This document shows positions 43,414-48,177 of a stretch of DNA of 64,000 bases, in pieces (within the stretch, counting starts at the first letter, position 1; every line of letters starts with the position of its first letter). The translations under genes were made by a program, and so were the position numbers. This stretch comes from Amycolatopsis pittospori (GTDB taxonomy: Bacteria; Actinomycetota; Actinomycetes; Mycobacteriales; Pseudonocardiaceae). The notes below the pieces were generated by a model, which saw only the letters and a program-made list of their open reading frames with translations, was not told the DNA's origin and made no database searches. The DNA is taken from contig NZ_JACBXD010000002.1 in the NCBI RefSeq assembly GCF_013870525.1, forward strand, positions 1-64,000. Direction: 5' to 3'.

Positions 43414-43995
43414 ATGGCGCTGCGGAACGCGATCCTCGCGATGCTTCTGGAAGACGAGGCGTCGGGCTATGACCTGGCGAAGAGCTTCAACGCGTCCGTC
43501 GCCAACTTCTGGACCACGACACCGCAGCAGCTCTACCGCGAGCTCGACAGAATGGAGTCGCAGGGCCTGGTGACGGCACGGGTCGTGGAACAGCGGCGCC
43601 GCCCCACCAAACGACTCTTCTCCCTGACCGACGACGGCGCGGCGGAGCTCGCCGAGTTCACCACGAAGGCACCGAAACCGACCGCGATCCGCGACGAGCT
43701 CCTGGTGCAGGTGCAGGCGATCGAGGCAGGCGACGCGGACGCGGTCCGGAGTGCCATCGCGGACAGGATGGCCGTCGCCGAAACGAAACTCAAGCAATTC
43801 GAGCGGCTGCGGGAACGCCTGCTCGGCGAGTCCTCCGAGGCGGACTTCCTCGCCACCGCGCCCCGCGTGGGCCCCTACCTGACCCTTGCCCGCGGGATCT
43901 CCTTCGAGCAGGAGAACATCCGCTGGTGCGAACAGGTTCTCACCGTTCTCGACCAGCGAGGATCGTCAGCCCGTACATCGACAGGACCCGGTTGA
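43414..43995 (+). CDS. PadR-family transcriptional regulator
   Basis: 193 residues: winged helix LRNAILAMLLEDEASGYDLAKSFNASVANFWTTTPQQLYRELDRMESQGLV and a C-terminal helical dimerisation region (Vir_act_alpha_C type). Likely represses the divergent SnoaL-like gene. Its 3' end overlaps the convergent pseudoprotease gene by 56 bases. Confidence 0.88.
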   Translation: MALRNAILAMLLEDEASGYDLAKSFNASVANFWTTTPQQLYRELDRMESQGLVTARVVEQRRRPTKRLFSLTDDGAAELAEFTTKAPKPTAIRDELLVQVQAIEAGDADAVRSAIADRMAVAETKLKQFERLRERLLGESSEADFLATAPRVGPYLTLARGISFEQENIRWCEQVLTVLDQRGSSARTSTGPG

Positions 43996-44608
43996 CCGGC
44001 AGGAAGTAGGACGTTCCGCCGCTGGCGCAGTTCCCGCTGCCACCGACCAGAACGCCTTGAGCCTGCGTACCGCTGACGAACGGCCCACCGTTGTCACCCG
44101 GCTCCGCGCAGACGTTCGTGCGGGTGAGACCGGTCAGGGTGCCTTCAGGGAAAGTGATCGTCTGGTTCTTCCCTTGGATGGTCCCGCATCGCCAGCCGGT
44201 GGTGGCGCCGTATTTGCACACCGAGGCGCCGACCGGGGCCTCGGTCGATCCGGTGATCGTCACCCGGCTGTCGGTCGGCGGAATCGACCCGGTCAGGCGC
44301 CAGTCGACGGTGTTGGTCACCCGGATGACGATCGCGCCGTTCGGCGGCATCGGCGCCGCTGAGACCACGCCGACCACGCGGCCCGCGCTGCGGACGGTCT
44401 CACCGGGCCTGCCGCAGGAACTGCCCGCGATCAAGTAGCCGACACTGCCCGACACCGCGGCGAACCCGGCGGTGCATCTGGACGACGTCGCGGTCTGCAA
44501 CGGACTGCCCCCGCCGAGCGGAGCCGGAGCCGCTTGGGCGGCGGGCGGCACGGCGAGACAGAAGGCCAGGAAGAAACCGAGCAGGACGCCGAATCGGGGC
44601 AGTCTCAT
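43940..44608 (-). CDS. secreted streptogrisin-like S1 pseudoprotease (catalytic triad absent)
   Basis: 222 residues with a signal peptide (about 1-26). The fold is that of streptogrisin-type S1 proteases: CTAGF at 45, CKYGATTGWRCGTI at 131-144, and an EPGDNGGPFVSG segment followed by VLVGGSGNCASGGTSYFLPV. All three catalytic positions are changed. The TAGHC His is replaced (IAGSSC, 61-65), the NDYG Asp is missing (PPNGAIVIRV, 89-97), and the GDSGGP Ser is Asn173. Three disulfides are still possible. ggaggtccc precedes the ATG. It should bind rather than cut: a decoy, adhesin or inhibitor-like role is inference. Confidence 0.85.
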   Translation of the reverse strand: MRLPRFGVLLGFFLAFCLAVPPAAQAAPAPLGGGSPLQTATSSRCTAGFAAVSGSVGYLIAGSSCGRPGETVRSAGRVVGVVSAAPMPPNGAIVIRVTNTVDWRLTGSIPPTDSRVTITGSTEAPVGASVCKYGATTGWRCGTIQGKNQTITFPEGTLTGLTRTNVCAEPGDNGGPFVSGTQAQGVLVGGSGNCASGGTSYFLPVNRVLSMYGLTILAGRER

Positions 44609-44688
44609 GGGACCTCCGATGACCAGACAAGTGCCTCGATCGTAACCAGGCCGGGTACCGCTGCCCAGCGGCCGAATCGCGCATCCCG

Positions 44689-45468
44689 TTACATCGCGCG
44701 CACGAGTTCCCGTACCACGGCAAGGGTTTCGTCGGGGTGGTCGAGGTGCACGGTGTGGGTCGCTCCCGGCCAGCGCACGAGGGACGCGCCGAGCGCGTCG
44801 GCGAGGCGTGTGTGCGCCTGCCTGATCGTGGCGCCGGGTTTACGGTCGGCCGTGACCAGCACGGACGGGATCCGCGGCAGATCGGCTTCGCGGAAGCCGG
44901 CGGAAAGTTCCGTGATCCCGCGGACCGCCCGGGCGAGTTGCGGGAAGTCGGCCTCGGCTGTCCGGGCCAGCGCGGCCGCGCAGTCCGGTCGCAGCCCCCG
45001 CATGGTCCGCTTGACGGAGACCTGCATGACGGTGGACAACGCCTTGTGCACCAACGGGATCGACACCAAGGGAGTGAGCTTGCGCATGATCCCTTCGAGC
45101 CGGGCGCAGACGCGGGGATCGTTGATCGGGGTCGGGTCGAGCAGTACGACGCCAGCGACGTTCTCCGGGTGATCGCGGGCCAGCAGCAGGGCCACCGCTC
45201 CCCCGAGACTCTGCCCGACGACGACCACCGGGCCGCAGCCCAGGTCGTCGATCAGCGAGTTCAGTCGGGACGCGGCCTCGGCGAGGGACCCGTTCGCGGT
45301 GGAAGCCCCGGTTCCGGGGCGGTCGTGCACGATGACGCGGCAGCCGGGATCGGCGACGAGCCCCTCGGGCAATCCGGGGAAGAAGCCGTCACAGGCCTCG
45401 GCGCCGCCGGGCAGCAGCAGCACAGGCTGTCCGGAGTCGCCGTATACCTGGACTCCGTCGATCCGCAT
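44689..45468 (-). CDS. alpha/beta hydrolase
   Basis: 259 residues: VLLLPGGAEACDGFF oxyanion region, VVVGQSLGGAVALLLA nucleophile elbow (Ser), and a C-terminal GATHTVHLDHPDETLAVV carrying the catalytic His. Cytosolic esterase/lipase-like enzyme of unknown substrate. cggaggagt precedes the ATG at 45466-45468. Divergent from a GntR gene, with a palindrome between. Confidence 0.88.
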   Translation of the reverse strand: MRIDGVQVYGDSGQPVLLLPGGAEACDGFFPGLPEGLVADPGCRVIVHDRPGTGASTANGSLAEAASRLNSLIDDLGCGPVVVVGQSLGGAVALLLARDHPENVAGVVLLDPTPINDPRVCARLEGIMRKLTPLVSIPLVHKALSTVMQVSVKRTMRGLRPDCAAALARTAEADFPQLARAVRGITELSAGFREADLPRIPSVLVTADRKPGATIRQAHTRLADALGASLVRWPGATHTVHLDHPDETLAVVRELVRAM

Positions 45469-47153: not shown

Positions 47154-47372
47154 GACTGCTCCTTCTCTCGATGCTGCTCCCTGTGAGCGGCTTGCTTCCG
47201 ACAGTGGCCCCGGCGAGGGTCCGTCCGGAACCCCTTGAACTGATCGTGTGACGTCAAAAAGCCCAGGTTGACAGCGTTTGACAGCCAGGCGGACGCCACT
47301 GATCCGCTGGTCAGCGCGGCGATCTCGGCGTGGTTGGCGATATACTTACCCAGCCGCGCAGAGTGACGAAAA

Positions 47373-47392
47373 TCGTGTCCGATCTGACACGA
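47373..47392. promoter_or_regulatory. operator-like palindrome before HTH membrane protein
   Basis: tcgtgtc (47373-47379) / gacacga (47386-47392), perfect 7-bp arms, 15 bases before the GTG start of the HTH-containing gene; possible autoregulatory site. Confidence 0.4.
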
Positions 47393-47406
47393 CCGCGAGG
47401 GGGAGC

Positions 47407-48177
47407 GTGCCGAAACTGCAAGCGGGAGAACGGGCACCGGAGCTGGACGCGTTCATGTCCGAGCTGCGGAAGCTACGGACGCGTGCCGGGGAACCGTCTT
47501 TCCGGAAGATGGCCGCGAAGTCCGGCGCGGTGTCCCACGCGACCCTGCACCTCACCGTCACCGGCCGACGACTGCAGCCGTGGGAGACGGTCCGCGAGTT
47601 CGTCCGCGCCTGCGACGGCGACGAAGAGGAGTGGCACGCCCGATGGCAGGGCTTGCAGCTCGTGCTCTCCGCCGACCGCGAACCGGAGACCGCGCCGTCC
47701 GTGCCGTGGTGGCGGTCCAAGCGGGTGCTCGTACCGTCGGTCCTCGTCCTCGTCGCCGCGATCGCGGCCGTCGTCGTCATCCTGGTGCCGGGTGAACAGG
47801 AAGCGCAGAGCGCCGGCCCGCATCCGGGCGACTCGAGCAAGTTCGTCGCCGACGTGACCATCCCCGACGAAACCCTGGTCAAACCGGGTTCGCAGTTCGT
47901 CAAGGTATGGGAGATCAAGAACACCGGCACGGTCGAGTGGCGGGGCCGGTATCTCCGCCGCACCGATGTCCCCGTCGCACCCGGCGCCTGCCGCACCCCG
48001 GAACGGATCCCGGTCAACGACACCGCCCCGCAGCAGCATGTGCAGGTGACGGTGACCGTGAACGCGCCGACCGCCCCGGCCGATTGCAAGGTCTTCTGGA
48101 AGATGGTCGACGCACAGGACCGGGAACTGCTGCCTTCGCGCCAGCCGATCTACTTCTCCGTGCTCGTGCGCCACTGA
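47407..48177 (+). CDS. XRE-type HTH membrane protein with extracytoplasmic NBR1-like (FW/Ig) domain
   Basis: 256 residues. The N-terminal ~80 residues are an XRE-like helix-turn-helix (FMSELRKLRTRAGEPSFRKMAAKSGAVSHATLHLTVTGRRLQPWETVREFVRACDG). One transmembrane helix follows (about 108-129), then a C-terminal NBR1 four-tryptophan/Ig-like domain from about 147 (FVADVTIPDETLVKPGSQFVKVWEIKNTGTVEWRGRYLRR). The topology puts the HTH in the cytoplasm and the Ig-like domain outside, a one-protein transmembrane sensor layout. GTG start after gaggggg. The ligand and targets are unknown. Confidence 0.82.
   Translation: MPKLQAGERAPELDAFMSELRKLRTRAGEPSFRKMAAKSGAVSHATLHLTVTGRRLQPWETVREFVRACDGDEEEWHARWQGLQLVLSADREPETAPSVPWWRSKRVLVPSVLVLVAAIAAVVVILVPGEQEAQSAGPHPGDSSKFVADVTIPDETLVKPGSQFVKVWEIKNTGTVEWRGRYLRRTDVPVAPGACRTPERIPVNDTAPQQHVQVTVTVNAPTAPADCKVFWKMVDAQDRELLPSRQPIYFSVLVRH

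Follow-up and report, generated by a model that had tools for sequence, protein, structure and literature searches.

The S1E proteases include active enzymes of solved structure, among them Thermobifida protease A (TFPA, 2pfe), NAPase (2oua), Cellulomonas chymotrypsin (2ea3), alpha-lytic protease and the streptogrisins. N4 (PDB 6xhz; Nixon et al. 2021, Biochemistry 60:170) is a homologue of alpha-lytic protease that reportedly has no pro-region and folds alone. In alpha-lytic protease itself the Agard laboratory reportedly found that Thr181, residue 199, Gln210 and Phe228 cause strain and kinetic stability. According to their titles, PDB entries 3urc, 3urd and 3ure carry mutations made for study at positions 181, 199 and 210, while the title of 1boq states that contacts of the carboxyl terminus of the pro-region with the active site are critical for folding.

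Pro-less S1E proteins with a broken triad are already known from N4, and pseudoproteases of other kinds are represented by MamO and by eukaryotic proteins. The latter include Phytophthora glucanase inhibitor proteins and insect serine protease homologues, secreted proteins of the S1 fold whose triads are dead and which act by binding partners. MamO of magnetotactic bacteria is a bacterial serine-protease fold that was repurposed, through direct metal binding according to the title of the paper (PMC4794232). ChpG is unlikely to be a pseudoprotease according to PMC11290698. Among the matches listed for the literature on bacterial S1 pseudoproteases, no title or abstract start deals with the clade described below.

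This clade is represented in Amycolatopsis pittospori by an ORF in a DNA stretch of 64,000 nucleotides, the window of the present analysis. It would provide a clean case of a secreted bacterial pseudoprotease, in which fold, pocket and cysteines are kept, catalysis and foldase are lost and close active paralogues are found in the same genomes.

The pseudoprotease ORF and its product

The S1E pseudoprotease ORF occupies positions 43940..44608 of the window on the minus strand, starts at an ATG and codes for 222 amino acids; its assignment is based on profile and structure matches and on an AlphaFold2 model. The ATG is preceded at four bases by a ribosome-binding site GGAGG (44613..44617, minus strand). 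Residues 1 to about 27 (44528..44608, minus strand) form by eye a Sec-type signal peptide. It is directly followed by the mature S1E-fold domain, residues 28-222 (43943..44527, minus strand), with no pro-region between them. A preliminary description of this DNA had stated that frame, signal peptide and ribosome site are kept, and the exact position of the ORF and its flanking signals agree with it. The 3' end of the gene overlaps tail to tail, by 56 bases (43940-43995), a plus-strand ORF (43414-43995) for a PadR-type regulator.

The AlphaFold2 model, built from the window sequence and 43 locus sequences, has a mean pLDDT of 89.1. It matches TFPA 2pfe (Z 32.1, rmsd 1.2, 185 residues), alpha-lytic protease 2alp (Z 31.9) and N4 6xhz (Z 27.3, rmsd 1.7, 183 residues). 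By sequence the best solved relative is NAPase 2oua (E 1.4e-43), then come TFPA 2pfe and Cellulomonas chymotrypsin 2ea3, and after these N4 6xhz, streptogrisin B and alpha-lytic protease. The active S1E proteases named above have the same fold as the window protein (Z 30.1-32.1, with 36-46% identity in structural alignments) and have the disulfides and the specificity pocket in common with its clade, which unlike them lacks the triad, Ser214 and the pro-region. MamO 5hm9 is a more distant fold match (Z 17.0, rmsd 3.5, 14% identity) whose role differs. The six cysteines of the three S1E disulfides are all present in the window protein, which bears out the intact scaffold of the preliminary description, and in 29 of 29 clade members, whose three disulfide bonds are predicted from them. 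Assignment to the Rv1815 family (NF051463) was rejected, the match (E 2.1e-05) scoring 24 bits against a cut-off of 175.

The motifs AGSSC, PPNGAIV and GDNGGP are found in the translation as had been described. Alignment on homologues with an intact triad places Ser64 (44417..44419) at the His57 position, Gly91 (44336..44338) at the Asp102 position and Asn173 (44090..44092) at the Ser195 position, all on the minus strand. The window protein therefore lacks the His/Asp/Ser triad of S1E peptidases, its three residues being all replaced as previously proposed. Two features absent from that proposal are the replacement of Ser214 and the loss of the pro-region. The Thr213-Ser214 positions, which we take from chymotrypsin-type numbering, align with Leu187-Val188 (44045..44050, minus strand).

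The Pfam pro-domain Pro_Al_protease is found in all five triad-bearing proteins scanned and in none of five triad-less ones, including the window protein, whose ORF gave no match to this domain even when read upstream of the ATG. The window protein is in this respect a pro-less S1E fold of the N4 type. In each of 32 triad-less locus rows a start codon could lie 22-49 residues ahead of the domain. The longest possible starts lie up to 143 residues before the domain in triad-less rows, and in triad-bearing rows at no less than 113 residues, with a median of 199 (three of 128 being cut at the locus edge). These ranges overlap, so the loss of the pro-region is decided by where the signal peptide lies and by the Pfam result.

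A search of the 8.4 Mb own genome found ten paralogous S1E matches, with the pro-domain in all four that were scanned. A close pro-bearing type of paralogue is present in 24 of 25 genomes tested. L082 and L084, close triad-bearing paralogues from the same genome, each combine the pro-domain with a carboxyl-terminal CBM5/12.

Distribution and descent of the triad-less clade

Similarity to the query and to N4, rather than random choice, determined which homologues were sampled. In the first locus set 90 of 96 homologous ORFs keep an intact triad, and the other six, all without it, are the window ORF and its five nearest relatives, a pattern that is not chance. The complete sample has 172 ORFs, 170 with a domain of at least 150 amino acids and 160 of those distinct; with the query and N4 they make 162 aligned rows, of which 128 keep the triad and 34 have it broken. 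Leaving aside the window's own locus copy, 29 triad-less rows belong to the window clade and four to the clade with N4.

The His57 position of the 29 clade members is occupied by A (19), G (5), S (3), V (1) or R (1), and the Asp102 position by G (26) or once each by N, L and A, so that His or Asp is retained at its old position in none. The Ser195 position has N (16), A (3), G (3), S (2), T (2) and single I, H and R; eight different residues over 29 sequences leave it no fixed chemical role. Loss of all three residues, as claimed in the preliminary description, holds for the window protein and, for His and Asp, throughout the clade, while Ser195 is still serine in two relatives, L096 and L106. 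These two lack His and Asp and should not be ordinary proteases. The pseudoprotease is conserved, triad-less and pro-less and bears a predicted signal peptide.

The phylogeny, run with the five catalytic-network columns masked, included 34 of the 128 triad-bearing rows (seven from the own genome and others below 72% identity), or 33 when the long branch L088 was left out. The 29 distinct sequences of the window clade form one group (support 100/99), so that a whole clade of S1E homologues shares the triad loss. The N4 group of four rows is likewise one group (100/99), and each attaches beside triad-bearing proteases. None of 200 bootstrap trees joins the two groups, and a quick tree also needs two changes. 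The AU test (p 0.034) gives a modest rejection of their common descent, one branch of the N4 group (L156) being long. Triad loss and pro-region loss coincide in the sample, where the tree shows only two independent events.

Like the window protein, N4 has the S1E fold with His and Ser replaced and a hydrophobic residue at position 214, and is reportedly pro-less; unlike the window clade it keeps Asp102. The window clade appears to have a separate origin from N4 and a different residue signature. Catalysis and foldase would have been lost twice, and with two separate losses one can ask whether it is only the proteolytic life of such a protease that makes a foldase necessary. The N4 relatives L136, L137 and L156, from a genus outside the window's order, have the broken triads HDA, RDI and GGG and no pro-domain match.

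Counting the own genome, 25 of 80 genus genomes carry the pseudoprotease gene (E 1e-60), as do 16 of 297 family genomes (E 1e-52), 12 of the genus and four outside it. At E 1e-47, 16 matches beyond the clade came from 397 order genomes and four from 394 class genomes, one of them shared; the 19 loci concerned (L117-L135) all have GDSGG in the Ser195 loop, and the broken-triad rows include none of them. Only the best candidates of each genome were scored (at most 37 in the genus, 10 in the family, 7 in the order and class searches and 13 in a further search), so that diverged clade members may have escaped. Among named records, those of Amycolatopsis (L002-L005) and Actinosynnema sp. ALI-1.44 (L001) hold the closest relatives of the gene.

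A codon model for 22 of the 29 clade members, without the seven most divergent and with L001 standing for L113 (identical protein), gives an omega of 0.134 for the mature domain and of 0.346 for the signal peptide, each a single average over all sites and branches. If omega is constrained to 1 and the tree left unchanged, lnL drops from -5054.8 to -5474.4, a cost of 420 log units, and the dN/dS comparison suggested in the preliminary description indicates that selection maintains the protein. The close triad-bearing paralogue has an omega, averaged in the same way, of 0.031 (18 orthologues from genus genomes holding the pseudoprotease). Purifying selection on the pseudoprotease is clear, and about four times looser than on its active-type paralogue. 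The looser constraint would fit a decaying gene, but all 28 relatives read have an uninterrupted frame across the domain, the in-frame stops counted in the searches being protein ends. Decay or a sequencing artefact is ruled out by the orthologues and the omega value, and we give it next to no credence: the substitutions are not confined to one decaying sequence, the gene being present in 25 of 80 genus genomes and in four other genomes of the family.

Specificity pocket and strain network

We checked in the clade those positions that reach a conservation of 95% or more among 103 triad-bearing rows (the 128 less L088 and the 24 N4-side rows). Those of the specificity pocket, which we presume from S1E numbering, are kept in 11 of 12 cases, against none of five for the catalytic network, six of six for the cysteines and 19 of 41 for other positions. 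Fisher's test gives p 0.007 for pocket against other positions and p 0.067 for catalytic network against other positions, and with a 90% cut-off the pocket (11/12) differs from the other positions (24/52) with p 0.008; these p-values are a guide only, because the sequences are related. Eight of the 12 pocket positions are glycines, kept in seven cases, and since glycines elsewhere are also well kept (11/14), the pocket signal rests on the four non-glycine positions, all kept against 8 of 27 elsewhere. The segment with the kept pocket walls, residues 168-175 and 189-198, is defined by this count and corresponds to 44015..44107 (minus strand). The glycine strand that pairs with the substrate is also kept in the clade sequences.

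Position 214 is Ser in 103 of 103 triad-bearing rows and V (21), I (6) or L (2) in the clade, where position 213 is L in 28 members and P in one. In our reading the catalytic machinery would have been discarded and repacked by hydrophobic residues at 213 and 214, with the P1 side-chain site kept. Retention of the specificity pocket but not of the catalytic network lends indirect support to the binding proposed in the preliminary description, and favours a binder using the old cleft. The GDxGG loop is relaxed in some members (GDAGA, GDGGA, GDNGA, GDGGS, GDTAV), which would count against this reading.

T162, F177, Q184 and F202 of the window protein are invariant in 29 of 29 clade members, where only 26 of 148 positions other than Gly and Cys are invariant. 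Mapped by eye, they presumably correspond to Thr181, residue 199, Gln210 and Phe228 of alpha-lytic protease, the strain network introduced above; the four positions were chosen late, when the family had already been seen. The 103 triad-bearing rows have there T in 89, F in 47 and W in 45, Q in 103, and F in 80; among the 24 rows on the N4 side that bear the triad there is I in 24, L in 24, Q in none and F in 22. At none of the four positions do N4 and its three relatives share the residue of the window clade (they have F/V/I, A, V/L and Y/L). An invariant set of presumed strain residues in a pro-less protein is unexpected. It would directly test whether these residues make the folding barrier.

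Possible roles and genome context

The clade protein probably binds rather than cuts. We see about an even chance that it is a secreted disulfide-bonded S1E-fold protein that lost proteolysis and was kept for binding, most likely through its old substrate cleft. It would be exported by the Sec pathway, lose its signal peptide and then fold without a pro-region of its own. The alignments show that the three catalytic residues and Ser214, which supports them, gave way to small, hydrophobic or varying residues, while the three cysteine pairs, the pocket walls and the substrate-pairing glycine strand are retained in sequence. Most likely the old cleft would then capture, without cleavage, a protein or peptide that would otherwise dock into the cell's own active S1E proteases. 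Candidate ligands are a canonical SSI-type inhibitor and the free pro-region of paralogues.

A decoy for an SSI-type inhibitor is possible. The own genome has one match to such an inhibitor, and inhibitors of this type are present in 80 of 80 genus genomes against 25 of 80 for the pseudoprotease, so that co-occurrence is uninformative on this role; the narrower distribution of the pseudoprotease counts against the cleft reading. In one relative an SSI-type match is found about 500 bases from an S1E protease match (G001:C1:2763078-2764356).

The fold might instead be a stable scaffold that binds through another surface, for example to serve in adhesion, to bind carbohydrate or cell wall, or to inhibit another secreted enzyme, for which the Phytophthora glucanase inhibitor proteins, dead S1 homologues, are a precedent. 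T98, N99, D102 and F177, conserved newly in the clade and outside the cleft, and the adjoining invariant W103 and L105 would suit such a surface, but the pocket walls are kept better than other conserved positions and this alternative is held tentatively. More doubtful is that the protein acts on protease folding, by folding with the pro-regions of active paralogues in trans or by soaking them up. The clade would then derive from large-pro, kinetically stable proteases that lost foldase and catalysis and kept the presumed strain network together with the cleft where the carboxyl terminus of the pro-region docks. Its lack of a pro-region, the four invariant positions of large-pro type, unlike those of N4, and the pro-bearing paralogue in nearly all genomes tested are consistent with this. 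N4, said to fold alone without a pro-region, argues that a pro-less S1E protein needs no helper in principle, and we regard this role as improbable. If true, the clade would regulate protease folding as a pseudoenzyme and would offer a natural test of the source of the alpha-lytic protease folding barrier. Catalysis by a different nucleophile or chemistry is very unlikely: four of the 29 members have Ser or Thr at the Ser195 position, but no His or Asp remains at the old positions, the residues at the His57 and Ser195 positions vary and no replacement base or nucleophile is seen among the invariant positions. The reading of a binder that uses its old cleft is the one we prefer.

The neighbours of the gene in the window code for the PadR regulator, a SnoaL-like protein, an alpha/beta hydrolase and an acyl-CoA dehydrogenase with a CoA-transferase. 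A comparison of nine window genes against 33 clade loci, 28 of which have no more than about 1.5 kb of flank, found no functional partner or operon, and only the acyl-CoA dehydrogenase recurs, in six loci (L002, L004, L005, L092, L097 and L098, the L005 and L092 proteins being the same). The gene immediately upstream codes for the alpha/beta hydrolase in the window and for an oxidoreductase-like protein in L002-L005. These are four of the five relatives with 5 kb flanks, in which the oxidoreductase-like gene is the same by its amino-terminal sequence; the L002 copy matches Bac_luciferase, and L001 and the window have no such gene.

An upstream element with a TACGAT -10-like hexamer (44637..44676, minus strand), which contains TACGATCG, resembles by eye that of relatives such as L106 and L114, while the rest of the upstream sequence differs. 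Its similarity despite different neighbours suggests that the pseudoprotease has its own promoter. A scan of 43800-44800 for sigma-70 consensus promoters and terminators found nothing. Elsewhere in the window, at 47278-48177, a helix-turn-helix protein is encoded with an additional match to the NBR1-type Ig-like domain (N_BRCA1_IG, E 1.2e-14).
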